Positions 3,577 through 17,081 of a stretch of 35,772 nucleotides of DNA are shown here, piece after piece. The translations under genes were made by a program, and so were the position numbers. Under the pieces are notes generated by a model, which worked only from the letters and a program-made list of their open reading frames with translations, was not told the origin of the DNA and made no database searches. The DNA comes from an uncultured bacterium (lineage in GTDB: Bacteria; Margulisbacteria; WOR-1; XYC2-FULL-46-14; WPAF01). The stretch spans positions 1 through 35,772 of the forward strand of contig CAIYXV010000098.1 in the NCBI GenBank assembly GCA_903930225.1, written 5' to 3'. The stretch's first letter is position 1. Each line of letters opens with the position of its first letter.

Positions 3577-4156
3577 CGATAATTCGCCCGATGGGACGGC
3601 CGATTTTGCCCGGCATCTTGGATTGAAAGTGCTGGTGCGGCCCACCCGGCAGGGACTGGCTTCGGCCGTGATCGACGGTTTTAAGATCGCGCGGGGAGAC
3701 ATACTTTGCGTGTTGGACGCCGACCTCTCCCACCCGCCCGAGATCATCCCCGAAATGCTGCGGATGATAAAATCGGAGGAAGCCGACCTGGTGATCGGTT
3801 CCCGCCTGGTCAAGGGCGGAGGATCGAGGGATTGGACGTGGTACCGCCGGCTGTTCTCGCAATTTGCCCGCCTGCCCGCCCAGCCGCTGACCGGCATCAG
3901 AGACATAACCTCCGGCTACTTCATGCTTAAAAAATCGGTAATCGACGGGGTTGAGCTCAATCCTATCGGCTTCAAGATCTGCCTCGAGATCATCGCAAAA
4001 GGGAAATACAAAAAAGCGGCCGAAGTCCCCATTATCTTCGCCGACCGCCAGGTCGGACGCTCAAAAATGGGCGCGATCGAGATCGCGGAGTATTTCCTCC
4101 AGCTCGGCCTGCTTTATAAGGACGCTATGCTCGGTAAATTAAGAAGGCGGGGATGA
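3473..4156 (+). CDS. GT2 glycosyltransferase, polyprenol-phosphate mannose/glucose synthase type (Dpm1-like)
   Basis: Members transfer a sugar from a nucleotide donor to a polyprenyl phosphate at the cytoplasmic face of the membrane. Motifs in order: SIIVPTYNEKSNL at the N-terminus, IIVDDNSPDGTADFA, RQGLASAVIDGF, the metal-binding LDADLSHPPE, and VIGSRLVKGGG. The later blocks DITSGYFMLKK and GFKICLEII are also typical of Dpm1-type enzymes. At 227 residues it lacks the C-terminal membrane domain of longer homologues. The next gene overlaps by 4 bp and encodes a 4-TM SMR-like protein, suggesting a pair that makes and flips a lipid-linked sugar. The donor sugar cannot be told from sequence alone. 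The start at 3473 matches the family N-terminus exactly. Confidence 0.9.
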   Translation: MLSIIVPTYNEKSNLSELTSRIRSLAKDAEIIIVDDNSPDGTADFARHLGLKVLVRPTRQGLASAVIDGFKIARGDILCVLDADLSHPPEIIPEMLRMIKSEEADLVIGSRLVKGGGSRDWTWYRRLFSQFARLPAQPLTGIRDITSGYFMLKKSVIDGVELNPIGFKICLEIIAKGKYKKAAEVPIIFADRQVGRSKMGAIEIAEYFLQLGLLYKDAMLGKLRRRG

Positions 4157-4518
4157 AAGTGGCAAATTACCTGATCCTGTTCGTATCGGTCCTGTTGGCG
4201 GTGATCGGCCAACTCCTAATGAAGCAGGGAATGAACCAGTTCGGATCATTCCCTATAACCCAGATCGTCCAAAAAACCATTCCGATGCTGCTTAACCCGT
4301 GGGTATTCTTTGGTTTTGTTTCTTTCGGCGTTTCATCCATCTTCTGGCTGGCAGTCCTTTCAAGATTGAATCTTAGCATCGCCTACCCTATGGTTTCGCT
4401 TGCTTATGTTGTCGTGGCAATCGCTTCGGTTATATTCTTTAAAGAAAATGTTACACTCGCGCGCTGGCTCGGGATCCTGGTTATCGTTTTCGGAGTGTTC
4501 TTGATCTCGCGGTCATAA
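4153..4518 (+). CDS. Small 4-TM SMR/EamA-like membrane protein (ArnE/ArnF-like)
   Basis: The 121 residues form four hydrophobic helices: ILFVSVLLAVIGQLLMKQG, WVFFGFVSFGVSSIFWLAVL, YPMVSLAYVVVAIASVIFF and WLGILVIVFGVFLIS. The conserved 'GQlLmKqGm' in helix 1 and 'A.Pm.slayv.vai.s' in helix 3 are typical of half-size EamA/SMR proteins such as ArnE/ArnF. It overlaps the upstream GT2 gene by 4 bp (ATGA). Because ArnE/F proteins flip undecaprenyl-phosphate sugars, a flippase for the GT2 product is the best guess; a small multidrug exporter is less likely in this context. The gene ends three bases before a dispersed repeat. Confidence 0.75.
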   Translation: MKVANYLILFVSVLLAVIGQLLMKQGMNQFGSFPITQIVQKTIPMLLNPWVFFGFVSFGVSSIFWLAVLSRLNLSIAYPMVSLAYVVVAIASVIFFKENVTLARWLGILVIVFGVFLISRS

Positions 4519-4520
4519 AT

Positions 4521-4633
4521 AAATCCTAAATCCGAATCACCTAAATCCGAACATGGTGCGCATTACATTAAATAAATCCCGAACGGAGCTAGGGATACAA
4601 TGTTCGGAATTCGGATTTCGGTTATTCGGATTT
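4521..4633 (-). repeat. Stop-codon-abutting palindromic repeat family A, copy 1
   Basis: About 113 bp lying between two convergent genes, 2 bp after the stop of the SMR-like gene and 4 bp before the stop of the nuclease-domain gene. The arms are degenerate iterations of AAATCCGAA and, on the other side, TTCGGATTT. The core on the minus strand reads CCGAACATTGTATCCC, GTTCGGGATT, then TGCGCaccaTGTTCGG. The other copies are at 8945, 12541 and 16952. Read from the minus-strand gene it follows, it has the same polarity as the other three. Confidence 0.85.
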
Positions 4634-4637
4634 TATG

Positions 4638-5129
4638 TCAATCCTTCTTATAGTATTTGGTGAAGTCTTCGGGCTTTATGTTCTCGATGAAGTCCTTGAA
4701 TTTCTTTGATTCCTCGGCGTCCTTTTCGGCGTTGACCAGCTTCGCCTGCACCATTACCGCTTCGGAAACGAAGATCGGCACGTTAAGACGTAAAGCCAGG
4801 GCGATCGCGTCCGACGGCCGCGAGTCAACGCTGTTCTTTTTTCCTTCCTTATTGGTATATTCGATGAGCGAGAAGAAGGTCCCGTCTTTTATATCATTGA
4901 TCAGGACGCGGTCTACCTGGCCGCCCAGTTCGTGGATGAAAGTCGCCAGCAGATCGTGGGTCATGGGACGGGGAGGGGTCATTCCCTGAAGCACCATCGC
5001 GATGCTGGCCGCCTCAAAAACGCCGATCCAGATCGGGAGGAAGTTCATTTCTTCCGCGTCGCGGAGCAGGACCAGGGGGGACAAGTTGCGCGGATCAAAA
5101 CCCAATCCGCCGACCTGCATCTGTATCAT
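4638..5129 (-). CDS. Bifunctional nuclease (BFN/DUF151) domain protein
   Basis: A 163-residue protein matching the BFN (DUF151) family: FDPRNLSPLVLLRD, LPIWIGVFEAASIAMVLQG, RPMTHDLLATFIHELGG, VDRVLINDIKDGTFFSLI and the signature SRPSDAIALALRLNVPIFV. Some members have been reported to have DNase and RNase activity; many bacterial members are uncharacterised. A C-terminal lysine/glutamate-rich tail follows the domain. It starts at TAATG, overlapping the rplT stop by one base, so it is the last gene of the thrS-infC-rpmI-rplT operon. Why a BFN protein should be coupled to ribosomal genes is not evident. Confidence 0.88.
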   Translation of the reverse strand: MIQMQVGGLGFDPRNLSPLVLLRDAEEMNFLPIWIGVFEAASIAMVLQGMTPPRPMTHDLLATFIHELGGQVDRVLINDIKDGTFFSLIEYTNKEGKKNSVDSRPSDAIALALRLNVPIFVSEAVMVQAKLVNAEKDAEESKKFKDFIENIKPEDFTKYYKKD

Positions 5130-5473
5130 TATTTTATGCTCTCGACGACCTTCTTGAACGCGGCGGGATCAAATACCGCCAGATCGGCCAGGACCTTGCG
5201 GTTAAGCGAGATTTTCTTATTTTTCATTCCGTTGATGAACTTGCTGTAAGAGATGTTCATCTCTTTGAGGGCGGCGCCGATGCGCGTGATCCAAAGCTTC
5301 CGGAAATCGCCTTTCCGCGTCCTGCGGTCGTCGGTAGAATACTTCATAGCATGCACTACCGCCTGCTTGGCGGGCCGGAAGATCTTGCCGAGCGATCCTC
5401 TAAAGCCGCTCGCTCTTTTTAAAACCTTTTTTCTGCGCCGGCGCGCGACATATCCTCTTTTTACCCTAACCAT
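5129..5473 (-). CDS. rplT: 50S ribosomal protein L20
   Basis: L20 binds 23S rRNA early in large-subunit assembly. The N-terminus VRVKRGYVARRRRKKVLK, the GFRGSLGKIFRPAKQAV block and YSTDDRRTRKGDFRKLWI are diagnostic, and 114 residues is a normal length. It overlaps rpmI by 8 bp and is followed by the BFN gene with a one-base overlap. In many bacteria L20 represses its own operon at the rpmI or infC leader; no specific leader structure is claimed here. Confidence 0.98.
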   Translation of the reverse strand: MVRVKRGYVARRRRKKVLKRASGFRGSLGKIFRPAKQAVVHAMKYSTDDRRTRKGDFRKLWITRIGAALKEMNISYSKFINGMKNKKISLNRKVLADLAVFDPAAFKKVVESIK

Positions 5474-5663
5474 AAGGCATCATCACCTTTATTCTTTTTT
5501 CATCCGATCCGGACAATACCAGATCCCTTCCGAGCGCTCTTTTGTGTCTACCGCTCTTGCATTCAAGCAGATGCCGTGTCTTGGCCTGCCTGCGCATGAT
5601 TTTTCCGGTCCCTGTTATCCTAAACCGCTTGGCCGCGGCCTTGCGGGTTTTCATTTTTGGCAT
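5466..5663 (-). CDS. rpmI: 50S ribosomal protein L35
   Basis: A 65-residue, very basic protein with the L35 signature MPKMKTRKAAAKRF at the N-terminus and GKIMRRQAKTRHLL in the middle. It lies 3 bp after infC and overlaps rplT by 8 bp, the standard infC-rpmI-rplT order. The C-terminus (LSGSDEKRIKVMMPYG) matches the family. Confidence 0.97.
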   Translation of the reverse strand: MPKMKTRKAAAKRFRITGTGKIMRRQAKTRHLLECKSGRHKRALGRDLVLSGSDEKRIKVMMPYG

Positions 5664-5666
5664 AAT

Positions 5667-6158
5667 CTATTTAGGTACCAGGAGCAGTACCATGTTCCTC
5701 CCTTCTATCTTCGGCGGCGCTTCCGGCTTGCCCAGTTCGGCAACCGCATCCACCAGCCGGTTTAAAACTCTTTCCCCGTATTCCCGGTGCGTCACTTCCC
5801 GCCCCCGGAAATATACGCTTATCTTAACCTTGCCCTTTTTCTCAAGAATCTCTCTCGTCTTACCGATACGCACGTTCAGGTCGTGTTCCCCGATCTTGGG
5901 CGTGAGCTTGACTTCCTTAAGAACGGAAGCTTTTTGGGATTTTTTTGCCTCTTTTTCGTGCTTGATGATCTCGTACTTGAACTTGCCGTAATCCGCAAGC
6001 CGGGCTACCGGCGGCGAGGCACCAGGAGAAATAAGGATGAGATCCACCCCTTTTTCCACTGCCATGGTCAACGCTTCGGATGTTCTTTTAACCCCCAGCT
6101 GGCTGCTGTCGGTATCGATCAGTCTGACCTCCGGAACGCGGACTCTTTCATTTATCAA
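5667..6158 (-). CDS. infC: Translation initiation factor IF-3 (TTG start)
   Basis: IF-3 binds the 30S subunit and proofreads start-codon selection. INERVRVPEVRLIDTDSSQ opens the N-domain, the YGKFKYE motif follows, and the C-domain contains IGEHDLNVRIGKTREILEKKGKVK and FRGREVTHREYGERVLNR. I place the start at a TTG (6156-6158) with AGGG a few bases upstream. An in-frame TAA lies shortly upstream, and no ATG or GTG gives the conserved INER start. Rare start codons are usual for infC because IF-3 discriminates against them and thereby regulates itself. The gene is 55 bp downstream of thrS and has its own candidate promoter. Confidence 0.96.
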   Translation of the reverse strand: MINERVRVPEVRLIDTDSSQLGVKRTSEALTMAVEKGVDLILISPGASPPVARLADYGKFKYEIIKHEKEAKKSQKASVLKEVKLTPKIGEHDLNVRIGKTREILEKKGKVKISVYFRGREVTHREYGERVLNRLVDAVAELGKPEAPPKIEGRNMVLLLVPK

Positions 6159-6201
6159 ATATTCCCTAACTACTTATCGCCCTCCAGTGAATTGTCCTCT
6201 G

Positions 6202-6230
6202 ATTATAGCAAATTTATGCTTTCGTGTCTA
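6202..6230 (-). promoter_or_regulatory. Sigma-70 type promoter for infC-rpmI-rplT
   Basis: On the minus strand TAGACA (6225-6230) and TATAAT (6202-6207) are separated by 17 bp. The -35 lies in the last codons of thrS. Transcription would start about 40 nt before the TTG of infC, letting the ribosomal-protein part be expressed separately from thrS. Confidence 0.65.
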
Positions 6231-7929
6231 TTTCTTTTCTTAGTTTATCGAGGAACTCTTCCAGTCCGGATTCCCCGATGTCTCCGCCATGCCGCGATCT
6301 TACCGCTACCTTCCCCGCCGCTTCTTCCTTATCCCCCACGATCAGCATATAAGGTATCTTCTGAACCTGTGCCTCCCGGATCTTGAGATTTATCTTTTCC
6401 CGCCGCGGATCAACTTCAACCCTGATTTCAGAATCCAGCAGTTTCTGTTTCAGCTTTTCGGCGTATCCCAGATGCCGGTCGGCGATCGGGAGAATAATGA
6501 CCTGGGTCGGCGCGATCCAGAGCGGGAACGCCCCGCCGTAATTCTCGATCAACGCGCCCAAAAACCTTTCCATTGATCCGAGCACCACCCGATGGATCAT
6601 GACCGGCCGCTTTTTGCTCCCGTCTTCCGCTATATAATGTAAATCGAACCTTTCGGGAAGGTTGAAATCCACTTGAATGGTGGGTCCTTGCCAGGGCCGT
6701 CCCAGCGCGTCCTTCATCTTTACGTCGATCTTTGGGCCGTAAAACACGCCTGCGCCGGGATCGGTCGCGTATTTTATTCCTTTTTTCTGCAGCGCGTTGA
6801 TCAGGGCGTCGGTGGCATGCGCCCAGTTTTCATCTGACCCCACGGAATTTTCGGGACGGGTCGAGAGGTAAACCTCGTAATCGAAGCCGAACGTCTTCAG
6901 CATCTCGAACGCGAAATCTATCACCGCGATGATCTCATCCTGCAGTTTTTCCGGCGTGGTGAAAATATGAGCGTCATCTTGGGTAAATCCCCGGACCCTA
7001 AGCAGTCCGTGAAGGACGCCGGACCTTTCGTAACGGTAGACGGTCCCCAGTTCAAAGAACCGGACCGGCAGGTCGCGGTAACTGTGCAATTTACTGTTGT
7101 AGATCAGGATGTGGCCAGGGCAGTTCATAGGTTTGAGCACATATTCCTGCTTGTCGATCTCCAGGAAATACATGTTCTCCCGGTAATATCCGGAATGCCC
7201 GGAAGTATTCCAGAGGTTGATCCGCGCGATATGGGGGGTGATCACGAATTCATACCCGCGTTTTAGATGCTCCTTCCGCAGAAAATCTTCGATCAAGAGG
7301 CGCAGTCTCGCCCCGCGGGGATGATAATAAACCAGGCCGGCGCCGGCTTCCTCGTGATAGATGTTAAAAAGGTCGAGTTCGCGTCCCAGTTTCCGGTGGT
7401 CCCGCTTGAGCGCTTCTTCCAGCTTCAGGATATGGGTCTTAAGGTCTTCTTCCTTTTCGAACGCGGTGCCATAGATGCGCTGCAACATGGGATTGGTCTC
7501 AACCCCGCGCCAGTAAGCCCCGGCAATGGTCAAAAGCTTGAACGCTCCCGCCTTGCCGGTCGAATCGATATGCGGCCCGCGGCAGAGGTCGATAAAGTCA
7601 CCGGTCCTGTAGACCGTGACGTTTGCATCCGGTATCTCTTTGATCAGCTCGACCTTGTATTTTTCGCCCTTTTCTGTAAAAAGCTTGACCGCGTCCTCTT
7701 TGGACATGGGGACCTTTATGAATTTTTCATCTTTCTTTACGATCTCCCGCATTTTCTCTTCGATCTTCACGAGGTCTTCTGGCGTGAGGGTTGTACCCGG
7801 TATGTCAAAGTCGTAGTAAAATCCTTCCTCGATCGCCGGGCCGATACCCAGTTTGGCGCTGGGGTAAAGCTGCTGTACGGCCGCGGCTAAAATATGAGAG
7901 GTCGAATGCCTTAAAAGTTCAAGCTCCAT
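6214..7929 (-). CDS. thrS: Threonyl-tRNA synthetase lacking the N-terminal TGS domain
   Basis: ThrRS charges tRNA-Thr and clears mis-charged serine. The protein starts almost directly with the editing domain (LLRHSTSHILAAAVQQL, then GIGPAIEEGFYYDFD). The second editing block follows with CRGPHIDSTGKAGAFKLL. The class II catalytic core shows MNCPGH, VYRYERSGVLHGLLRVRGF, TQDDAHIF and IHRVVLGSMERF, with the cysteine and histidines that bind the zinc. A C-terminal anticodon-binding domain ends the protein. At 571 residues it is about 65 shorter than typical ThrRS because the TGS domain is absent. I use the ATG at 7929, not the in-frame GTG at 7953, because a TATAAT lies 7 nt before this ATG and would be inside the longer form. 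Confidence 0.95.
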   Translation of the reverse strand: MELELLRHSTSHILAAAVQQLYPSAKLGIGPAIEEGFYYDFDIPGTTLTPEDLVKIEEKMREIVKKDEKFIKVPMSKEDAVKLFTEKGEKYKVELIKEIPDANVTVYRTGDFIDLCRGPHIDSTGKAGAFKLLTIAGAYWRGVETNPMLQRIYGTAFEKEEDLKTHILKLEEALKRDHRKLGRELDLFNIYHEEAGAGLVYYHPRGARLRLLIEDFLRKEHLKRGYEFVITPHIARINLWNTSGHSGYYRENMYFLEIDKQEYVLKPMNCPGHILIYNSKLHSYRDLPVRFFELGTVYRYERSGVLHGLLRVRGFTQDDAHIFTTPEKLQDEIIAVIDFAFEMLKTFGFDYEVYLSTRPENSVGSDENWAHATDALINALQKKGIKYATDPGAGVFYGPKIDVKMKDALGRPWQGPTIQVDFNLPERFDLHYIAEDGSKKRPVMIHRVVLGSMERFLGALIENYGGAFPLWIAPTQVIILPIADRHLGYAEKLKQKLLDSEIRVEVDPRREKINLKIREAQVQKIPYMLIVGDKEEAAGKVAVRSRHGGDIGESGLEEFLDKLRKEIDTKA

Positions 7930-7936
7930 AATAATA

Positions 7937-7967
7937 ATTATATCATACCTCACCCACTCTCCAGCAA
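7937..7967 (-). promoter_or_regulatory. Candidate thrS promoter with -10 box 7 nt from the start codon
   Basis: On the minus strand TATAAT occupies 7937-7942 and a weak TTGCTG (7962-7967) lies 19 bp upstream. The -10 is only 7 nt from the ATG, so the mRNA would be leaderless or nearly so, and no Shine-Dalgarno sequence is visible. Confidence 0.5.
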
Positions 7968-8000
7968 AGATGGGACGGCTGAAAAGTAATAGTAAGTGGA

Positions 8001-8089
8001 CCCCAGACTGAAGTCTGGGGAATATTTTTTCAGCAGATTCCCCACACTTTTCCTCCCGAGGCGGATCCGCCTTTGGCGGAAGTGTGGGG
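8001..8089. repeat. Double-hairpin repeat family B, copy 1 (with nested palindrome)
   Basis: A 20-base hairpin CCCCAGACTgAAGTCTGGGG (8001-8020) is followed by GAATATTT and a second hairpin with arms CCCCACACTT (8040-8049) and AAGTGTGGGG (8080-8089). Between the second arms lies a further palindrome, GGCGGATCCGCC (8060-8071). The same two hairpins recur at 14796-14864, where the nested insert is absent. The stretch 7930-8175 contains this element, the thrS promoter and a terminator, but no gene. Confidence 0.85.
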
Positions 8090-8122
8090 TTCTCTTTCTT
8101 CCCCTTTTCCAGCTGTCTCAGG

Positions 8123-8155
8123 CAAAAAAAAGCGTCCCGACATTGTCGGGACGCT
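8123..8155 (-). terminator. Rho-independent terminator of the lipoprotein gene
   Basis: On the minus strand AGCGTCCCGAC-aat-GTCGGGACGCT (11-bp perfect stem, 8131-8155) is followed by a run of T residues. It lies about 20 bp after the stop of the gene at 8176-8916 and points the right way. Confidence 0.9.
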
Positions 8156-8175
8156 TAAGCTAAAAAGAAATCAGC

Positions 8176-8916
8176 TTATGACGGATATACAGTAAAACTT
8201 GTGGAGGTACCTCCATAAGTAAAGGTCCCAATCGCAGTACCGTCAAATACAAGGGTTATCCCGGTCTGCGACACGTTGTCATAAGTGGAAGAGATACTGA
8301 TCGTTCCGGTAGGATAATCAGCCACTGTCGATCTGGGCAAAGAAAAACTGGTCGTTGTGAATGTCATTGCCAGCGTGTGGCTGACGTTTGATGCATCTGC
8401 GACATTCATGCTTATACCGACCGAACCGCTGATAACAACATTGGTCACTATTCCGCTGACAAGGGTATAATCAGCATGATAAGGATTGCTGCTGCTCCCG
8501 TAAGTCAGGGTCATGGCATATACGGCTGAAGAATATTTATAAGTGCCATAAACATCAACGGTTTTACCGGCGGTATCCACTTTGGCATGCAGATCAACCT
8601 CAATTGTCACGCCGCCTGCCGTCTCGGTTCCGGCAATGGAATACCAACCGCTTGTAGGACCGCTCACGACTATATCTTTTGAGCTGACATCCTTTATGCC
8701 AAAAGTGCTCACTCCTCCCGTGCCTGCCCATCCAGACATTGAACCGGCCATGCCTTGGGCCAGCGACGCGCCAAGGGTGGAATAGGTTTGCGCGGTCGTG
8801 GCCGGAAGCGCGGCGGTAGTTGAGTTATTGGAGCTTGCCTGCTGACAGCCGGTCAAGGCCGCAAGAGACATTACTACTACCCCCAATACCATAATGATCG
8901 CGAATATTTTTTTCAT
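8176..8916 (-). CDS. Putative lipoprotein of unknown function
   Basis: A 246-residue protein with a clear lipoprotein signal peptide: KK at the N-terminus, a hydrophobic stretch, and the lipobox LTGC with cysteine 24, followed by a serine/threonine/alanine-rich linker. The rest is rich in serine, threonine, glycine and valine and predicted beta-rich, for example STFGIKDVSSKDIVVSG and AMTFTTTSFSLPRSTV. I do not recognise a family. A strong ribosome binding site (AAAGGAGGTG) precedes the ATG and a rho-independent terminator follows, so it is probably a well-expressed single-gene unit. It would be anchored in the outer or inner membrane. Confidence 0.8.
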   Translation of the reverse strand: MKKIFAIIMVLGVVVMSLAALTGCQQASSNNSTTAALPATTAQTYSTLGASLAQGMAGSMSGWAGTGGVSTFGIKDVSSKDIVVSGPTSGWYSIAGTETAGGVTIEVDLHAKVDTAGKTVDVYGTYKYSSAVYAMTLTYGSSSNPYHADYTLVSGIVTNVVISGSVGISMNVADASNVSHTLAMTFTTTSFSLPRSTVADYPTGTISISSTYDNVSQTGITLVFDGTAIGTFTYGGTSTSFTVYPS

Positions 8917-8944
8917 ATTAATTCACCTCCTTTTGATTTATTTT

Positions 8945-9046
8945 AAATCCGAATTTCCTAAATCCTAAATCCGAACATTGTGCGCCTTGCGCATTATATA
9001 ATAAAAATACATCGTTCGGATTTCGGTAATTCGGATTTCGGATTTT
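8945..9046 (-). repeat. Stop-codon-abutting palindromic repeat family A, copy 2
   Basis: About 102 bp, ending 6 bp from the stop codon of the TrpB2 gene (minus strand). It has the AAATCCGAA-type arms and, on the minus strand, the core CCGAACGATGTAT, then TAATGCGCAAGGCGCACAAT and GTTCGG. It lacks the inner TTTGTTCGGGATT part of the longer copies. Relative to trpB2 its polarity is the same as the other copies have to their genes. It also separates trpB2 from the lipoprotein gene upstream region. Confidence 0.85.
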
Positions 9047-9052
9047 CTCCCC

Positions 9053-10402
9053 TTATACCTTCGGGACTTTTTTTAGCGATTCTTTGATCAGTTCCATCGG
9101 ATACTCGTAATCTTCCATCTTTCCGGAAAGATATTTTTCGTACGACGCCAGATCAAAATGCCCGTGTCCGCTCAAATTGAAGATTATAACCTCGCCTTCC
9201 TTCGCTCGCTTCGCTTCCTCGATCGCGCAGTGGATGGCGTGCGACGATTCGGGCGCGGGAATGATCCCTTCGGTCCCGGCAAACAGGATCGCCGACGCGA
9301 AGCATTCTTTTTGATGGTACGCTCTGGCCTCGATCACCTTGTCTTTTGCCAGATTGGAGACCAGCGGCGCCATGCCGTGGTAGCGCAATCCGCCGGCGTG
9401 AATGCTCGGTGGCATAAAATCATGGCCCAGCGTGTACATCTTTACCAGCGGGGTCATCCCGGCGGTATCGCCAAAATCGTATTCATAAAGCCCCTTGGTC
9501 AGCGTCGGGCAGGCCATCGGCTCGACCGCGATCACCCGGGGATTGGTCCTTCCCTTCAGTTTGTCCTTGAGGAACGGGAACGCGAGGCCGGCAAAGTTGC
9601 TGCCGCCGCCGACGCACGCGATCACCACGTCAGGATCTTTCTCCCCGATTAGTTTCAGCTGTTCGATCGCCTCCAAACCGATTATGGTCTGATGGAGCAG
9701 GACATGGTTCAATACGGAGCCGAGCGAATATTTGGTATCTTCCCTTCCCACCGCATCCTCAACCGCTTCCGAGATGGCGATGCCAAGGCTCCCCGGATTG
9801 TCGGGATTCTCTTTCAGTAGCGCCTGGCCGTATTTGGTCTTTTTACTGGGAGAGGCATCAACGATCCCGCCCCAGGTCTGCATCATCAGCTTGCGGTATG
9901 GCTTCTGGTCAAAGCTGACCCTTACCATGTAGATCTGGCATTCCAGATCGAACAGCTTGCAGGCAAAAGCCAAAGCCGAACCCCACTGCCCCGCCCCGGT
10001 CTCGGTCGCGATGCGCTTAACCCCTTCTTTTTTATTGTAGTAGACCTGCGCCACCGATGTGTTCGGTTTATGCGAACCGGCCGGCGAAACGCTCTCGTTC
10101 TTATAATATATCCGGGCTTTGGTCTTGATCGCTTTTTCCAGGCTAAGCGCGCGGTGCAAAGGCGTCGGCCTCCAGAGCTTTAGGATATCCAGCACTTCCT
10201 GGGGAATATCGATCCAGGGATCCGCGCACATTTCCTGCTGGATCAGCGCCATCGGGAAAAGAGGCGCCAGGTCCGCAGGGCCAAGCGGCTGGTGGGTTGC
10301 CGGATGGAGCGGAGGCGCGAGGGGAGTTTTAAGATCGGGAGCGATGTTGTACCACTGTTTGGGAATATCCTTTTCGCTGAGCAATATTTTTCTGTCTGTC
10401 AT
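9053..10402 (-). CDS. trpB: Tryptophan synthase beta chain, TrpB2 type
   Basis: A PLP enzyme that condenses indole and serine to tryptophan. The 449-residue length, the N-terminal [20 protein letters not shown], and [13 protein letters not shown] mark the TrpB2 subfamily rather than the shorter TrpB1. The PLP lysine is in SHKPN (K112), followed by [14 protein letters not shown]; the phosphate-binding loop is [11 protein letters not shown]. TrpB2 enzymes often work without TrpA, as indole salvage or stand-alone enzymes, and no trpA is present here. A GGAGGG ribosome binding site precedes the ATG. The gene starts 19 bp after the stop of the outer-membrane protein gene and may be co-transcribed with it. 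Confidence 0.94.
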
Positions 10403-10421
10403 GGTTTCCCTCCGTTGATTA

Positions 10422-11504
10422 TCAGAACCCGCCCGCCAGGTCGAGCACGATCGAATTATTGTTGCTGATCTTCCCGTCCATTACATACGCCGCGTTAAGC
10501 GTTAAGAAAGGGATCCCCAACTTGCAGCCGATCGTGGTAAGGGACAGGTTCGTGCCGGAAGCAATACCCCCGCGCAGTGTGACCAGGCCCAGGAGAAGAG
10601 GATATTCAAGACCTAAATGGGTGTTGCTGTAGCCGTTGCCCGATTCCAGATCGCCCGCGAGAAGAATTCCCACCACCGGGATCGTTCCTGACGCTCCTAG
10701 GGCAAACGATGAATCAGTGGTACGGGACGAGCTTGGGATATCGACGTCAGGCCCTTGGGTATAGGTGCTGCTGCCGGCGGCCGCAGTTAGAGTTTTGGTC
10801 TTTCCGGAGGTCGTGATCGATTCGGCCAGGTCGCGGATCACCGCGCCCACGGAAATGGAGGTTACTAACGGCACGTCAAATGTCATCAAAGCCCCCAGGT
10901 CGACTCCGACCCCCGTGCTGTTCAAGACGCTCTGGTTGCCCGCGGCTCCGCCCAGAGGGTTTGCGGTAACATTGACCAGGCCCATGGTTGAGCCCAGGTA
11001 TTTTAAATTGGCCCCGACATTAAGCGAAGGCAATAACGCCGGCATGCCAAAGGTATAGCCGAACGTCATAACGCCGGTATACATTAAACCGGCCTCGCCG
11101 TTAGCTGCCAGACTGTTGGCCGGTTTTGATATGTTGACCCCTACGTTGGGAAGCAAGGTTAATCCGATCTTGTTGATGTTCGCTCCGATCAAACCGCTAA
11201 AGCTTCCGTTCACGTTCATATCCTTTGAAAAATTATCGGTCACAAGCTTAGCGGGATCGCCGGAATTGGCAAGCGCGCTGGCCAGCTGGTCCATTCCCGA
11301 ATATGCCACGCTGCCGGATGCCATGAAACCAATCTTACCCTGTGCCATCAGCGCGGCGGGATTATAGTAAGCGGCAGAAAGGTCCCGGCAGGCCGCCACG
11401 CCGGCGCCGCCCATGCCCGATGCCCGCGCGCCGACCAGGTATTGTCCGAACGAAGCCGAAGCCATAACCAGCAGAAGCAGAAGTCCGCACATTAACCTTT
11501 TCAT
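10422..11504 (-). CDS. Outer-membrane beta-barrel protein, PorV/TraF-like family
   Basis: A 360-residue protein with a signal peptide ([20 protein letters not shown]) and the motif [27 protein letters not shown]. That motif is shared by FadL-like, PorV-like and 'TraF-type' outer-membrane barrels, whose first strands carry 'a.lG.aG.a...d..a.y.NPA.L'. The remainder alternates hydrophobic and polar residues and ends with a typical barrel strand (IVLDLAGGF). I start at 11504 because the signal peptide begins there and AGGAGG lies directly upstream; the frame extends upstream to 11621 but that part has no signal features. The ligand or role is unknown. It is read divergently from gmk. Confidence 0.8.
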
Positions 11505-11538
11505 ACCGTACCTCCTAAAAATACTCGTCCCGGCAAGC

Positions 11539-11567
11539 AGGTTATCAAAGCATCTTGCCAAAGTCAA
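11539..11567 (-). promoter_or_regulatory. Candidate promoter of the outer-membrane protein gene
   Basis: On the minus strand TTGACT (11562-11567) is 17 bp from a weak TAACCT (11539-11544). The -35 abuts the gmk -35 on the other strand, so the two divergent promoters are back to back. Confidence 0.4.
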
Positions 11568-11583
11568 GCGATTTTGATATAAT
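11555..11583 (+). promoter_or_regulatory. gmk promoter
   Basis: TTGCCA (11555-11560), a 17-bp spacer and TATAAT (11578-11583) form a good sigma-70 type promoter. The -10 ends 11 nt before the ATG of gmk, leaving a leader of about 4-5 nt. Confidence 0.7.
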
Positions 11584-11594
11584 TTACTAGGTTT

Positions 11595-12206
11595 ATGCCA
11601 AAAAAAGCAAAAGGGAAGCACGGCCTTTTGGTCGTGATCTCCGGCCCGTCCGGCGTCGGTAAGTCCACGGTCGTCAAAAAGCTTTTGTCATCCAATCCAA
11701 AACTGAAGCTGTCGATCTCGGCCACGACCCGGCCGCCGCGCCCTAACGAGACGCACAATAAAGATTACCAGTTCGTGACCGAAGAGGAGTTCTTCGACCG
11801 CGAAAAAAAAGGCATGTTCCTGGAGTGGGCGCAGGTCCACGGGTATTATTACGGGACATCAAAATCTTTCATCGAGGACCAGTTGCTGAAAAATAACATC
11901 GTCGTTTCAGAGGTCGATGTGCAGGGCGCGGCTTCAATAAAAGAAGCGGTGTCGCTGGGACACGTAAAGACCTCGGCCGTTTTTATTTTTCTGATCCCGC
12001 CGTCGGTCGATATTCTCGCCTTCCGGCTAAGGAGAAGAAAGACCGAGAACGAAGAAGTGGTCAATTACCGCCTGCGGGCGGCGATCGCCGAACTGCAGGT
12101 AATGGAAAAATACGATTACATAGTGGTGAATGATAAGGTCGATACCGCTTCGGAAAAGATAAAAGCTATAATCAATGTTGAAAAAGAGAGGGTGTTATTG
12201 AACTAA
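11595..12206 (+). CDS. gmk: Guanylate kinase
   Basis: Phosphorylates GMP to GDP with ATP. The P-loop GPSGVGKST is at residues 17-25. SISATTRPPRPNE and the YQFVTEEEFF-FLEWAQVHGYYYGTS region form the GMP-binding domain, and EVDVQGAASIKE and FLIPPS follow. At 203 residues it has the usual length, with a short lysine-rich N-terminal extension. It heads the conserved gmk-rpoZ-coaBC-priA-def cluster and its stop overlaps the rpoZ start by one base. Confidence 0.97.
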   Translation: MPKKAKGKHGLLVVISGPSGVGKSTVVKKLLSSNPKLKLSISATTRPPRPNETHNKDYQFVTEEEFFDREKKGMFLEWAQVHGYYYGTSKSFIEDQLLKNNIVVSEVDVQGAASIKEAVSLGHVKTSAVFIFLIPPSVDILAFRLRRRKTENEEVVNYRLRAAIAELQVMEKYDYIVVNDKVDTASEKIKAIINVEKERVLLN

Positions 12207-12535
12207 TGGAAGAAACAATCGATACATTACTGTCCAAGGCCAAGAACAAGTTCCTGTTGAGCAACGCCGTTGCCGGACGGGCAAAGCAGATCGCCGAGGG
12301 GTCCCTGCCCTACGTGGATAATTTTGATCCGACCAATCCCATAATCACGGCCATCCGCGAGATCGCGAACGACAAGATCAAGATCCGCATGATCGCTCCC
12401 GGAAGCAAAAAAGCGCATGATGTGGACGTGCTCGCGCCTGCCGAAGAAGCTCCTTCCGCCCTGGTAAGACTGGCCAAGGACGCGAAAGAAAAAAAGAGCG
12501 CGGCGCCGAAGAAAGAAAAGAAGAAGAAAAAGTAA
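12206..12535 (+). CDS. rpoZ: RNA polymerase omega subunit
   Basis: Omega assists folding and assembly of the beta' subunit. The 109-residue protein starts at TAATG immediately after gmk, the usual position of rpoZ. KNKFLLSNAVAGRAKQIAEG is the recognisable omega motif ('nRfeL...a..RArql..G'), followed by NPIITAIREIANDKI. A long C-terminal tail ends in an almost pure lysine stretch (KKEKKKKK), which is longer than in most omegas. Length and position support the call; the sequence is divergent. Confidence 0.88.
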   Translation: MEETIDTLLSKAKNKFLLSNAVAGRAKQIAEGSLPYVDNFDPTNPIITAIREIANDKIKIRMIAPGSKKAHDVDVLAPAEEAPSALVRLAKDAKEKKSAAPKKEKKKKK

Positions 12536-12540
12536 ATCTG

Positions 12541-12652
12541 AAATCCTAAATCCGAGATCCGAACTTAGTATCCCTCACTTTGTTCGGGATTCATTATAAT
12601 AATGCGCAAGGCGCACAATGTTCGGACATTCGGATTTCGGAAATTCGGATTT
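12541..12652 (+). repeat. Stop-codon-abutting palindromic repeat family A, copy 3
   Basis: About 112 bp beginning 5 bp after the rpoZ stop and ending 7 bp before coaBC. The 5' arm is AAATCCTAAATCCGAGATCC. The core contains GTATCCCTCACTTTGTTCGG, GATTCATTATAATAA and TGCGCAAGGCGCACAATGTT. The 3' arm repeats ATTCGGATTT-like units. It closely matches copy 4. An in-frame ATG inside it (12618) would extend CoaBC by 14 repeat-encoded residues, which I do not accept. Confidence 0.88.
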
Positions 12653-12659
12653 AATTAAT

Positions 12660-13838
12660 ATGCTAACAAAAAAAACCATTATCCTCGGTGTAACCGGCGG
12701 CATCGCCGCGTATAAGTCCTGCACGCTGGCCTCAAGGTTAAAAGACCTGGGGGCGGAGGTGTGGGTAGTAATGACAGATGCAGCCACCAAACTGGTCGGG
12801 CCCCAGACTTTCAGAACGCTGACGGGAAATCCCGTTGTCACGGACCTTTTCTCCCAGGAGATCGCTAACCTCCCGGTCCCGCATATCTCCTTAGCGGAAA
12901 AAGCGGACCTGATCGTCATCGCGCCCGCGACCGCCAACATCATCGGGAAGATCGCTTACGGCATAGCGGACGACGCGCTTACCACGATCGTAATGGCCTC
13001 CCGGGCGAAAAAGCTGATCGCTCCGGCCATGAACGCAAACATGTGGAGAAACCAGATCGTAAAAGATAACGTGAGGAAGCTCAACGAGCACGATTTCCAC
13101 TTTGTCGGCCCGGTCAAGGGCAAGCTCGCCTGCGGAGAAGACGACATGGGCCGGATGTCTGAGCCGGAAGAGATCATTGAGAAGATCGAGGAATTGCTGA
13201 AACCGAACGCCGATCTGGCCGGTAAGACATTTTTGATCACGGCCGGGGGAACGCGGGAAGCGATCGACCCGATCAGGTTCATCGGGAACCGTTCGTCCGG
13301 GAAAATGGGATTTGCCCTGGCGGAAGCCGCCGCGGCGCGCGGCGCGAAAGTAATTCTTATCTCCGCCCCAACCTCCCTTACCCCGCCCGAAACGGTTACA
13401 ATGATAAATGTAATAAGCGCCAAAGATATGTATGAAGCGGTAATGAAGCACCGCCACGATCAGGATGTCATCATCATGGCGGCGGCGGCGGCCGACTTCC
13501 GCCCCAAGATCACATTCTGGCAGAAGGTAAAAAAAGACCGCGACGGCCTGCAGCTTGAGCTCGCCAACACGGTCGATATTTTAAAGGACCTGGGGAATTT
13601 GAAGAACGGATCGAAGCTTATCGGGTTCGCGGTCGAGACCGAGAACCTCGAAGAAAACGCCAGAGAGAAACTGCAGAAAAAGAACCTCGACCTGATCGTC
13701 GCCAACGACACGGCGGCGTTTGAATCCGACTCTTCGCAGGTCAAGCTGATCGATCGGACGGGGAACGTGGAAGATCTCCCCGAACTCCCCAAAAAAGAGG
13801 CCGCCCACCGGATCCTCGATGCCATTCTACGACTATAA
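12660..13838 (+). CDS. coaBC: Bifunctional phosphopantothenoylcysteine decarboxylase / phosphopantothenate--cysteine ligase
   Basis: CoaBC performs two coenzyme A steps: ligation of cysteine to 4'-phosphopantothenate (CoaB) and decarboxylation to 4'-phosphopantetheine (CoaC). The FMN-dependent CoaC half comes first: GVTGGIAAYKS, the active-site histidine in PHISLAEKADLIVIAPAT, and APAMNANMW. The CoaB half begins around residue 190 with LITAGGTREAIDPIRFIGN and RSSGKMGFALAEAA, and contains MAAAAADFRP. The total of 392 residues is normal. The start at 12660 gives the standard N-terminus (LTKKTIILGVTGG). No Shine-Dalgarno sequence is seen. The 3' end overlaps the FmdB-like gene by 20 bp. Confidence 0.96.
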   Translation: MLTKKTIILGVTGGIAAYKSCTLASRLKDLGAEVWVVMTDAATKLVGPQTFRTLTGNPVVTDLFSQEIANLPVPHISLAEKADLIVIAPATANIIGKIAYGIADDALTTIVMASRAKKLIAPAMNANMWRNQIVKDNVRKLNEHDFHFVGPVKGKLACGEDDMGRMSEPEEIIEKIEELLKPNADLAGKTFLITAGGTREAIDPIRFIGNRSSGKMGFALAEAAAARGAKVILISAPTSLTPPETVTMINVISAKDMYEAVMKHRHDQDVIIMAAAAADFRPKITFWQKVKKDRDGLQLELANTVDILKDLGNLKNGSKLIGFAVETENLEENAREKLQKKNLDLIVANDTAAFESDSSQVKLIDRTGNVEDLPELPKKEAAHRILDAILRL

Positions 13839-14037
13839 ATGCAAAAAGTGCGGGACCAAGTTTGAGGTCTCGCATGGAATGAACGATAAGCCTTCGGTTA
13901 AATGCGATTCGTGCGGTTCGGATGATACCTCCAGGATATTCAATACCTTCGGACGCAGCGGCGGCGACAGCGGACACTCACATGGAAGCGGATGTTCTTC
14001 CTGCGCCAGCGGCGGCTGCTCCACCTGCGGGCATTAA
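13819..14037 (+). CDS. FmdB-family zinc ribbon protein
   Basis: A 72-residue protein starting MPFYDYKCKKCGTKFEV, with CxxC pairs at CKKC and CDSC, which is the FmdB/CxxC zinc-ribbon family (putative regulatory proteins of unknown mechanism). The C-terminal third is a glycine/serine/histidine/cysteine-rich tail (GHSHGSGCSSCASGG), which may bind additional metal. It starts within the last 20 bp of coaBC, so it is probably translated from the same mRNA. It is not a usual member of the gmk-priA cluster. Confidence 0.85.
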   Translation: MPFYDYKCKKCGTKFEVSHGMNDKPSVKCDSCGSDDTSRIFNTFGRSGGDSGHSHGSGCSSCASGGCSTCGH

Positions 14038-14075
14038 TTTTATTATTCTTTTTTTCTTCCCCTCTTTTTTAATGA

Positions 14076-14081
14076 TATAAT
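14076..14081 (+). promoter_or_regulatory. Candidate -10 box for the small gene at 14101
   Basis: TATAAT lies 19 nt before the ATG at 14101, with GAGGTG between as a ribosome binding site. The upstream region is a pyrimidine-rich tract with no recognisable -35. Confidence 0.4.
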
Positions 14082-14100
14082 ATATTTGAGGTGATTCAAT

Positions 14101-14391
14101 ATGCCGCAGATTCCAGGTGTTAGTCCCACTTCTCCAGCAAAACCTGCTCCGCCATCGTTTGAAGTCGTAAATGCAAGAAGCGTTGTCGGGTCATATAAAT
14201 ACGCCGCCGCAATGCCGTTTATGACTAAAGAGGAGTTAAATGCAGCCGCAAGCGCATTGAAAAAGGACGGCAAGGTAAGAATTCCAAATCAAAAAACCAT
14301 AAACGATCGTATTGTCGCAAGAACCGCAGAACAATTGCAGGAAATACAGCTAAGGATGACTGAACAAATAATAAAGCAATTGTCATCATAA
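14101..14391 (+). CDS. Hypothetical 96-residue protein
   Basis: I do not recognise this protein. The first 20 residues are proline/alanine/serine-rich (PGVSPTSPAKPAPPS). The middle contains MTKEELNAAASALKKDGKV, and the C-terminal third is an amphipathic helix (AEQLQEIQLRMTEQIIKQLS) that could form a coiled coil. There is no signal peptide or membrane segment. A good ribosome binding site (GAGGTG) and a -10 box support expression. It sits between fmdB and priA. In the same frame after its stop are 22 sense codons ending in TGA (14392-14460). Confidence 0.6.
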   Translation: MPQIPGVSPTSPAKPAPPSFEVVNARSVVGSYKYAAAMPFMTKEELNAAASALKKDGKVRIPNQKTINDRIVARTAEQLQEIQLRMTEQIIKQLSS

Positions 14392-14460
14392 GCCATTTCA
14401 TATCTTAAAGGTTTTCCCGGCTTTACCAGCGGCGGTTGCTCCAGCGGCTGGCCCCACTGA
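14392..14460 (+). pseudogene. Possible remnant of a cysteine/glycine-rich C-terminal tail
   Basis: Directly after the TAA at 14389-14391 the same frame stays open for 22 codons and ends SGGCSSGWPH before TGA. Its 18-mer at 14426-14443 matches the fmdB tail at 14006-14023 with one mismatch (CCAGCGGCGGYTGCTCCA). This may be a fragment of a second FmdB-like gene or a lost end of the 14101 gene. The evidence is thin and the match could be chance in G+C-rich codons. Confidence 0.25.
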
Positions 14461-14531
14461 CCTAAAATATTTTTCGCTCCTTACAAGTTTTTAACCGACC
14501 GCCCCGATATACTTTATGGAGGACGATTTAA

Positions 14532-14753
14532 ATGGGAGAATTTTCTTTTCCGGGGACCGCGAGCGGTTTATACGGAACTTACAATTTATTAAACCAGGGG
14601 GCGACGATCACTGACGTAAAAGGAAAAGTCGTGGTCTCCAGTAAAGGCAAAGAGAGCATACTCGATCTTTCTGATCCCAAACTGCTTGAGCAATTGCAAA
14701 GCATAAACGGCCACATTGAGGTCATCCCGCACGAGATAAAGCTGACGGTCTGA
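14532..14753 (+). CDS. Hypothetical 73-residue protein
   Basis: Not recognised. The ATG is preceded by GGAGG at good distance and by TATACT (14508-14513). The sequence begins MGEFSFPGTASGLYGTYNLL, then shows a beta-like segment (ATITDVKGKVVVSSKGKES) and LSDPKLLEQLQSINGHIEVI. There is no membrane segment, signal peptide or cysteine. It may be a small cytoplasmic protein. It is one of two unknown genes placed between coaBC and priA, which are adjacent in many genomes. Confidence 0.6.
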   Translation: MGEFSFPGTASGLYGTYNLLNQGATITDVKGKVVVSSKGKESILDLSDPKLLEQLQSINGHIEVIPHEIKLTV

Positions 14754-14795
14754 CCATAGGATCAAAATAACGCCTTTGGAAACTATCTTTGAGAA

Positions 14796-14864
14796 CCCCA
14801 GACTAAAGTCTGGGGAATATTTGGAAATTTTCCCTTCGGGAATTCCCCACACTTTAGTGTGGGG
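14796..14864. repeat. Double-hairpin repeat family B, copy 2
   Basis: CCCCAGACTaAAGTCTGGGG (14796-14815) and CCCCACACTTTAGTGTGGGG (14845-14864) are two perfect hairpins. A small hairpin TTCCC-ttc-GGGAA (14830-14842) lies between them. The first hairpin and the following GAATATTT are nearly identical to copy 1 at 8001. It lies between the 73-residue gene and priA and holds no coding sequence. Confidence 0.88.
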
Positions 14865-14887
14865 TGCATTATGCAACAACCCCCTCT

Positions 14888-14919
14888 GATAACCTGATAT
14901 CCGGATAATCTGATATACT
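14888..14919 (+). promoter_or_regulatory. Tandem 16-bp repeat containing the priA -10 box
   Basis: GATAACCTGATATCCG (14888-14903) is followed directly by GATAATCTGATATACT (14904-14919). The second unit ends in TATACT (14914-14919), 6 nt before the priA ATG, with no Shine-Dalgarno sequence. This is probably a leaderless promoter; the duplication may be an operator or simply slippage. Confidence 0.4.
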
Positions 14920-14925
14920 ATCCGC

Positions 14926-16953
14926 ATGTACGCCGAGATCGTCCTCTCACGGGCAACCCCCCAGTTAGACCGGATCTACCATTACCGGGTCCCGGATGAA
15001 CTGCTAAATCAGCTAAAGGTCGGCCATCAGGTATCGATCCCGTTCGGCAGGAGCGCCACCGTCGGGTATGTGGTTGGTTTCACCGAAAAGCCGGGCATTC
15101 ACGAATCGTTGATCAAAAACATCGAAGGCATTAAAGCGGAAGTACCTTTGTTTACCGAGAACTCGCTTATCCTTGCAAAATGGATGGCAGAATACTACGG
15201 CTGTTTTTTTATCTCCGCATTAAGGGCGGTTATGCCGCCCGGGACCGCGGGAAAAGAAAAAAGAACCTCACCCCTTTCTTCTCCGCCTTCGGCGAAGAAT
15301 TCATTCCCCTCTCCATCTTTGATGGAGAGGGGTGCAGGGGTGAGGAATTCTTCCCTCACTCTTACCACTCACCAGCAAAATGCGCTGGACTCAATTATCG
15401 GATCGGTAAATAAAGGGCAGAAAGAGACTTTTCTCCTTTACGGAGTAACGGGTTCTGGAAAAACCGAGATCTATATCCGATCGATCGCTCATGCGTTGAG
15501 CAAAGGGCGGGGATCGATCATGATGGTGCCGGAGATCAGCCTGACCGCCCAGCTGATCCGGCGGTTCAAAGAGAGATTTACAGACCAGATCGCAGTCCTG
15601 CACAGCAACCTGACCGCCAAGCAGAGAGAGACGGAATGGATGAGGATCGCCCGGGGAGACGCCTTAATCGTGCTCGGCGCGCGGTCCGCCGTTTTTGCTC
15701 CGGTCAAAGACCCGGCGCTTATCATTCTCGACGAAGAATACGAAACGACCTATAAACAGGAAAAGAACCCCCGCTACCACGCCCGCGAAGTCGCGGAACA
15801 GCTCAACGCGACCATCGTGCTTGGTTCCGCCACCCCGTCGATCGAAACATATTATAAAGCGCAAACTGGTGTATACCAATTGGCGTCCCTTCCCGAAAGG
15901 ATCGACCGCCGCCCGCTCCCGCCGGTCGAGCTGGTCGATATGCGAAACGAAAGCGGACGGGTGCTTTCAGAAAAGCTCCAGCAGGAAATAACCGAAACTC
16001 TTTCCCGGGAAGAAAAAGTGATCCTCTTTTTAAACCGCCGCGGATATTTTACTTTTTCGATCTGCAAAGGATGCGGGCACGTTTTAGAATGCCCTCAATG
16101 CTCCGTCTCTCTCGTCTACCACTCCGATGACAAAAAGCTTCGCTGCGGCCATTGTGATTATACCTCCGAGGCGAAATTGATCTGCCCCAAATGCCATAAC
16201 GCTTCGATGGGATTTTTTGGCACCGGCACGCAGAGGATCGAGAAAGAAGTGTCGGAAGCGTATGCCAGCGCTAAGATCGTCCGCTGGGACCGCGACTCGG
16301 TCATAAAAAAAGGCTCGCATGAAATGATCTTTGCCGCGTTCGCCGAAGGCAACGCCAATGTGCTGATCGGGACGCAGATGGTGACCAAGGGGCTGGATAT
16401 CGCATCAGTTACACTGGTGGGCGTGGTCTCCGCGGACACTTCCCTCAACCTGCCCGATTTCCGGGCGGCGGAGCGGACGTTCCAGCAGATCACCCAGGTG
16501 GCGGGGCGCGCGGGAAGGCATCACCTGCCGGGAAAGGTAATCATCCAGTCACTCAACCCTGATCATTACGCTTTAAGATACGCGCTCACCCACGATTACG
16601 ACGGATTTTACAGGGAAGAGATCGAATTCAGGAAGGCTCTTTTTTATCCTCCGTTCAGCCGGCTGATCAATATCGTTTTCGCAAGTAAAAATGAACCGAA
16701 GCTGATCGAGATCGCAAATAAAATCGCAAAAGGGCTGGACCGGTTTTTGGAGGGAAAAGGGAACAAGCATATCGTGCTCGGCCCGGCCAAAGCGCCAATC
16801 TCAAAACTGCGGGGTCAATACAGATACCAGATACTTGTAAAAGCGGAAGATATCGAACCGGCAAGACAAAAACTGTTCGACCATCTTAAGAAAGCCAATT
16901 ACCCGTCGGACATCAGGATCACCGTTGATGTTGATCCGATAAACCTGCTATAA
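14926..16953 (+). CDS. priA: Primosomal replication helicase PriA with an in-frame palindromic insertion
   Basis: PriA recognises stalled forks and restarts replication. The N-terminal 3'BD domain opens with YAEIVLSRATPQLDRIYHY. The helicase core has Walker A GVTGSGKTE (residues 173-181) and a Walker B variant DEEY (269-272) where most PriA proteins have DEEH. The zinc-binding region includes CKGCGHVLECPQC, CGHCDY and CPKCHN. The later helicase motifs are IGTQMVTKGLD and QVAGRAGR. At 675 residues it is of normal length. Residues about 114-140 are encoded by a nested palindrome (15266-15345) between the DNA-binding part and the helicase core. A family A repeat overlaps its stop codon. Confidence 0.95.
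   Translation: MYAEIVLSRATPQLDRIYHYRVPDELLNQLKVGHQVSIPFGRSATVGYVVGFTEKPGIHESLIKNIEGIKAEVPLFTENSLILAKWMAEYYGCFFISALRAVMPPGTAGKEKRTSPLSSPPSAKNSFPSPSLMERGAGVRNSSLTLTTHQQNALDSIIGSVNKGQKETFLLYGVTGSGKTEIYIRSIAHALSKGRGSIMMVPEISLTAQLIRRFKERFTDQIAVLHSNLTAKQRETEWMRIARGDALIVLGARSAVFAPVKDPALIILDEEYETTYKQEKNPRYHAREVAEQLNATIVLGSATPSIETYYKAQTGVYQLASLPERIDRRPLPPVELVDMRNESGRVLSEKLQQEITETLSREEKVILFLNRRGYFTFSICKGCGHVLECPQCSVSLVYHSDDKKLRCGHCDYTSEAKLICPKCHNASMGFFGTGTQRIEKEVSEAYASAKIVRWDRDSVIKKGSHEMIFAAFAEGNANVLIGTQMVTKGLDIASVTLVGVVSADTSLNLPDFRAAERTFQQITQVAGRAGRHHLPGKVIIQSLNPDHYALRYALTHDYDGFYREEIEFRKALFYPPFSRLINIVFASKNEPKLIEIANKIAKGLDRFLEGKGNKHIVLGPAKAPISKLRGQYRYQILVKAEDIEPARQKLFDHLKKANYPSDIRITVDVDPINLL
15266..15352. 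repeat. Nested palindromic element inserted in frame in priA
   Basis: Outer arms CCTCACCCC (15266-15274) and GGGGTGAGG (15337-15345) enclose a perfect 12-bp stem, CCCCTCTCCATC / GATGGAGAGGGG (15306-15332, loop TTT). They also enclose a smaller hairpin around CGCCttCGGCG. GAAGAATTC (15294-15302) also recurs inverted as GAATTCTTC (15344-15352). In the priA frame it encodes SPSLMERGAGVR and flanking residues without a stop. Its form resembles the protein-coding palindromic elements known from Rickettsia and similar elements elsewhere. Confidence 0.85.
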
Positions 16954-17078
16954 ATCCGAATAACCGAAATCCGAATTCCGAACAATGTATTCCTCACTTT
17001 GTTCGGAATTTATTGATTTAATGCACAAAGCGCACAATGTTCGGATTTAGGATTTGGGATTTAGGAATTTAGGATTTA
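16952..17078 (+). repeat. Stop-codon-abutting palindromic repeat family A, copy 4
   Basis: About 127 bp; its first bases are part of the priA stop codon. The 5' arm runs AAATCCGAATAACCGAAATC. The core has GTATTCCTCACTTTGTTCGG, AATTTATTGATTTAA, then TGCACAAAGCGCACAATGTT. The 3' arm is TTCGGATTTAGGATTT-like and longer than in other copies. The def -10 box begins 4 bp after it. Confidence 0.88.
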
Positions 17079-17081
17079 TGT

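Follow-up and report, generated by a model that had tools for sequence, protein, structure and literature searches.

Stop-abutting palindromes with heptad arms, a probable non-autonomous mobile element, in an uncultured bacterium of the Margulisbacteria

Four palindromic repeats and their neighbours

The window (the whole stretch of DNA analysed, 35,772 nucleotides of contig CAIYXV010000098.1 from an uncultured bacterium of the Margulisbacteria) contains four full copies of a palindromic repeat with arms of iterated heptads, at about 4519-4635 and 8943-9048 (minus strand) and 12533-12654 and 16951-17079 (plus strand), each of which abuts a stop codon. The first copy lies between the convergent stops of a gene for an ArnE/ArnF-like (EamA-type) small membrane protein (4153-4518, plus strand; 0 bp from the stop at 4518) and a bifunctional nuclease (BFN) domain gene (4638-5129, minus strand; PF02577, E 7e-41; 3 bp). 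The second is found 6 bp past the stop of a gene encoding a TrpB-like pyridoxal-phosphate enzyme (9053-10402, minus strand; profile aligned through 440/441). The third and fourth overlap the stops of rpoZ (RNA polymerase omega; 12206-12535, plus strand; PF01192) and priA (14926-16953, plus strand; profile end reached, with the normal C-terminus VDPINLL), having the TAA in common with the gene, and are bordered on the other side by coaBC and def, respectively. A reading of this DNA from sequence alone (below, the sequence-only reading) had reported four related repeats with iterated arms here, all abutting stops, and each of these points was borne out; its gene names rpoZ, priA and BFN were also correct, while its 'trpB' belongs to the TrpB-like family instead. 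The coaBC frame is open into the element (12618-12660), where the core contains an ATG (12618) in phase with the probable start codon (12660), and an element-encoded N-terminal extension of coaBC, MFGHSDFGNSDLIN, is possible.

Full copies of the family (105-134 bp) consisted of a heptad arm (AAATCCG/T), GAACAATGTA, an optional nested palindrome, an AT-rich TTATTATATAAT, a small variable GC hairpin, CAATGTTC and a second heptad arm, with (T)AAATCC...GGATTT(A) as the ends in nearly all copies read. In the window the arms are iterations of AAATCCG/AAATCCT, and the excess of AAATCCGAA-like words there (42 versus 20.9 expected) was located in the four copies; the copy at 4519-4635 carries a nested TATCCCTAGCTCCGTTCGGGAT palindrome, and that at 8943-9048 represents the base form without one. 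The core TGCGCAAGGCGCACAATGTT, which the sequence-only reading had assigned to all four, is exact only in the copies starting near 8945 and 12541, has two mismatches in that near 16952 and is more diverged in that near 4521. Cores vary by small interchangeable palindromes (for example, ATCCCTCACTTTGTTCGGGAT) and by GC stems, and the variable stems remain paired (TGCGC/GCGCA, CCGCC/GGCGG, TATGCC/GGCATA, TCGCC/GGCGA). The heptad arms pair end to end, as do the terminal inverted repeats of miniature inverted-repeat transposable elements (MITEs). Folded as DNA, 4/4 window copies beat all 200 shuffles (z -4.6 to -5.7); folded as RNA, three beat every shuffle, and the 16952 copy was weaker (z -2.8, equalled by 4/200 shuffles). 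Most element cores hold ATTATATAAT or TATAAT (for example, window positions 8993-9003), either merely an AT palindrome or possibly a -10-like motif. An Rfam search of the window gave no match.

Hairpins immediately past stops, several of them at convergent gene pairs, would be expected of intrinsic transcription terminators or attenuators. A sense-strand T-run is nevertheless absent after all four window copies, the terminator scan gave a single weak match in an element core, in antisense (12617-12603), two of the copies lie within the gmk-rpoZ-coaBC...priA-def cluster, and a GroEL-like gene on contig C97 has its own GC hairpin and T-run upstream of the element. The termination structure that the sequence-only reading had offered as an option is therefore most improbable.

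Full copies at stop codons and the same junctions in relatives

The genome comprises 1.69 Mb in 137 contigs, of which the window is one. A covariance model was built from seven copies and used to search the genome, and genes were called with a home-made hexamer caller. At E <= 8e-5 the search returned 17 full-length copies, some of which had served to train the model and the weakest of which was a divergent copy on contig C37, together with some 30 partial copies, the arm-only fragments among which are hard to delimit. The family was dispersed over at least 13 contigs, and two of its words, GTTCGGATTT and TTNGGATTTNGGATTT, occurred 36 and 67 times in the genome, respectively, against 1 and 2 occurrences of reversed-pattern controls.

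A stop codon was overlapped or lay at most 7 bp away in 17/17 full copies; at the copy on C13, one neighbouring gene reads 38 bp into the element. Of random intergenic points in the same stretches, 6-19% fall equally close to a stop, the range being set by the gap limit and by whether the 18 bp before starts were left out, and against this null, drawn from about 240 kb of genome partly picked around the copies, 17/17 gives p ~4e-13. The adjacency had been noticed before the test was designed, though the sequence-only reading had drawn it from four copies, and the 13 added by the search are independent of these. The genome-wide covariance-model check proposed in the sequence-only reading thus showed that positions are not random. 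Stops are present in most frames of the full copies, and 0/17 were inside a gene; these copies are accordingly intergenic with a preference for gene 3' ends, as are repetitive extragenic palindromes (REPs).

Abutting genes reached the ends of their NCBIfam profiles (PriA 788/788, NadA 304/306, RlmB 240/240, pyruvate kinase (PykF) 476/476, PckG 608/612, GlcD 412/413, GlmU-like 394/394 and TrpB-like 440/441), and their stops are therefore ancestral. Truncation of genes by element-borne stops was ruled out for the genes with profiles, the C-termini of which are normal. Elsewhere, an RluA/RluD-family gene (L071, 2074-3054) runs into the adjoining copy and ends inside it, with the element-derived tail ...NPNNEKSEYPKSEQ.

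That the repeat always faces the same way relative to its gene, as the sequence-only reading had it, did not hold genome-wide. Orientation was read from the sequence of the core parts, in which the AT-rich segment precedes the small hairpin, since the arms dominate the covariance-model score and two copies were misoriented by the model. Among copies near a single stop, seven had the direction of the gene (three copies on C98, and those on C89, C131, C97a and C27) and four the opposite direction (C28a, C105, C97b and C56); five further full copies lay between convergent genes, and the C37 copy was too diverged to be oriented. No polarity can be defined for the copy starting near 4521, which has a stop at either end, and its assignment to BFN was arbitrary. 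The uniform polarity in the window was a small-sample effect.

The nearest relatives compared (G001, G002 and G003) belong to other genera. In these, rpoZ and coaBC have no element between them and are 3 bp (G001) or 2 bp (G002) apart, while priA and def, again without an element, are separated by 9 bp in G001 and overlap by ATGA in G003. Since relatives have nothing inserted at either junction and leave little or no gap there, the window copies at these sites are insertions at gene junctions. The right flank of the priA copy retains ATGTTATAATTTCC, as does the G001 junction; over the longer ATGTTATAATTTCCCCAAATG it is identical to that junction at 20/21 bases, a match covering the last two priA codons and the stop of G001, and a similar CTGCTATAA forms the priA end at the left. 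By their sequence, the flanks resemble a duplicated stretch of about 9 bp. Three copies in G001 show a 4-kb spacing similar to that in the window, but they are not syntenic with it, as the genes differ.

These junctions bear on the possibility of true sequence-targeted insertion, in which a site preference of the enzyme for the stop-codon/TAA context, independent of selection, would account for the placement. Such targeting would explain the excess over the intergenic null, the TAAATCC end that often has its TAA in common with the stop, the rpoZ-coaBC junction of G001, which reads GTAAATC|ATG, and the stop-containing sequence on both flanks at the priA site. It does not account for arm fragments in genes far from stops; TGA stops are abutted as well, and no consistent duplication accompanies the copies. 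We regard it as a minority possibility, with perhaps one chance in several of being right.

Heptad arms inside genes and spread in relatives

About 15 partial copies were found inside reading frames, mostly consisting of one heptad arm and at most the first core bases; only arms, and no full elements, were within genes. In-frame, stop-free (AAATCCG)n arms occurred in ValS, IleS, CysS, DXS, AroA, GcvPB, RimO, HemW and others, adding residues relative to solved homologues in IleS (about 15), GcvPB (8), DXS (6) and AroA (5) as well as in ValS and CysS; the inserts in HemW and EtfA were less clear-cut by the same comparison. The hydrophilic KSEIRNPKSE reading was used in 11/15 in-gene arms and FGFRISD in 4/15, one of the latter in a membrane prepilin peptidase, a bias that is suggestive only (11:4, p 0.12). 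It seems doubtful that the palindrome is tuned for tolerance, with units of 7 bp, not divisible by three, that give one harmless, hydrophilic peptide (KSEIRNP) in any frame, and TAA ends that coincide with natural stops. If it were, one family could colonise gene interiors and ends throughout the class and repeatedly add loops to essential enzymes. The idea that the heptad unit is specially open in all six frames was rejected, as about half of all 7-mers are likewise open.

Relatives of the same class carried divergent heptad palindromes with AAATTCG, AAATCCC and AATGACC arms, and 23/36 of their non-coding copies were at most 7 bp from a stop, relative to a null of 11% (23/40 with a stricter total of 40 non-coding copies, p ~1e-12), G007 and G017 being exceptions. 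The AAATYCG triple-heptad word was confined to the class (12/74 genomes of the phylum). A pattern scan for carriers among the contigs of named genomes gave four chance-like matches in unrelated taxa, and no description of a heptad palindrome family was found in the literature on candidate phyla.

The recurrence of stop-adjacent copies in several genera is one of the observations to be expected if the repeats were functional REP-like hairpins at mRNA 3' ends, which stabilise the upstream mRNA or stall ribosomes and the position of which is under positive selection. Two others are the conserved pairing of the variable core stems and the distance to the stop, which at 7 bp or less in 17/17 copies is inside the <16-nt range for translational effects of E. 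coli REPs (PMC12306157). The genes abutted are, however, unrelated to one another, no orthologous copy was seen at the same junction, relatives are without copies at rpoZ and priA, orientation is mixed and many copies are at convergent junctions, and we judge this role unlikely as the general explanation.

Known palindrome families and the origin of the repeats

REPs lie at short distances (<20 bp) past the 3' end of an upstream gene or between a convergent gene pair, some are intragenic, and their termini sometimes provide the stop codon (PMC3733652); in E. coli, REPs were adjacent to stops in 260/496 cases in one set and in 11% in another (PMC12306157). Since 3'-end placement and repeat-supplied stops are already known for REPs (PMC3733652), placement alone is not new. 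New features are the build from heptads, the spread through the class and the occurrence of stop-hugging full copies alongside in-frame arms. The likeness to REPs and bacterial interspersed mosaic elements lies in dispersed, 3'-proximal and partly intragenic palindromes, the ends of which sometimes supply the stop, whereas REPs are 20-40 bp long and GTAG/CGTC-tagged, and the family here is 100-134 bp long, untagged, built with heptad arms, adjacent to stops in 17/17 cases and with no REP-associated tyrosine transposase (RAYT) found to belong to it.

A RAYT-mobilised REP family in the strict sense would agree with the palindromic, dispersed, 3'-proximal and intragenic copies, as known for REPs (PMC3733652), and two Y1_Tnp (IS200/REP-type) genes are indeed present in the genome, both on one contig (G000:C89:775-1125 and C89:10901-11248; L095, L094). 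Each has a hairpin type of its own, ATACCCACGATTTAAATCGTGGGTAT and CCCCATACTAAAGTATGGGG, respectively, which borders it in several copies and is unrelated to the heptad family, so that the search for a RAYT-type transposase proposed in the sequence-only reading yielded two candidates of which neither is bordered by the heptad repeat; GTAG/CGTC tetranucleotide tags at the element ends were also not found. Such an origin has very little probability. The second Y1-type hairpin resembles window positions 8001-8020, CCCCAGACTGAAGTCTGGGG.

Rickettsia palindromic elements (RPEs) are 105-146-bp palindromes inserted in frame in conserved enzyme genes, where they encode a recurring peptide (PMC2229807, PMC10969869). 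By description, not by sequence, they resemble the present family as dispersed palindromes of about 100-150 bp with in-frame insertion in conserved genes, but here stop-free arms alone enter genes and full copies remain at stops. Palindromic inserts that code for protein have, to our knowledge, been described mostly in Rickettsia and in some genomes rich in REPs. Neisseria Correia/NEMIS elements have a shorter stop-free form in genes and a longer stop-rich form between them (PMC2229807), the same partition as here, although NEMIS have defined terminal inverted repeats and duplications, while the family here has iterated arms and no clear duplication. YPAL/RU-2 and ERIC of enterobacteria are MITEs that form small hairpins; some are cotranscribed with the gene upstream, and in-frame fusions occur occasionally (PMC2229807). 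Small hairpin elements with occasional in-frame gene fusion are thus common to these and to the repeats described here. As far as we know, however, size and sequence differ, and heptad arms or nested palindromes do not occur there.

Taken together, we consider the family likely to be a dispersed non-autonomous palindromic mobile element of the REP, RPE or MITE sort. Of the three options in the sequence-only reading, a mobile palindrome with 3'-end target preference was the best, agreeing with the dispersal, the empty sites, the stop adjacency above the null and the in-frame arms, though not in its strict polarity. The family would have spread by a copying mechanism, and in a compact genome the present placement would be that of the survivors, stop-bearing full copies being tolerated only at 3' junctions, and arm fragments when in frame. 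That copies are in excess at tight junctions, compared with longer intergenic DNA, points to a further bias, which may be an insertion preference near TAA or gene ends, or retention as a hairpin at the mRNA 3' end. Several observations weigh against a mobile origin with placement by survival: under selection alone, longer intergenic gaps would be expected to contain more copies than they do, and the tight-junction excess is larger than uniform insertion with avoidance of ribosome-binding sites accounts for; no mobilising enzyme was tied to the family, both Y1_Tnp genes being bordered by other hairpins; a family-wide target-site duplication was not found (permutation p 0.25), only the priA copy hinting at one; and the comparison of empty and filled sites rests on relatives of different genera, not strains.

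One genome shows both full copies strictly at stops and arms in tRNA synthetases and core metabolic enzymes, and this is a clean system for separating insertion preference, selection and retained mRNA function behind stop adjacency. For annotation, KSEIRNPKSE-like loops in proteins from metagenome-assembled genomes can derive from repeats.

A separate 20-bp palindrome of the nested type, CGTACCTGCCGGCAGGCAGG, lies at 2738-2757 of the window, with two mismatches to the perfect 20-bp palindrome CCTGCCTGCCGGCAGGCAGG. The latter is present in 12 copies in the genome (G000 contigs C6, C14, C27, C42, C56, C71, C89, C91, C106, C112, C117 and C130), and 20 sites were found at up to two mismatches (control, 0). 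It is sometimes nested in heptad arms, including the arm of one full copy, and is read in frame in GcvPB (SPACRQAG).

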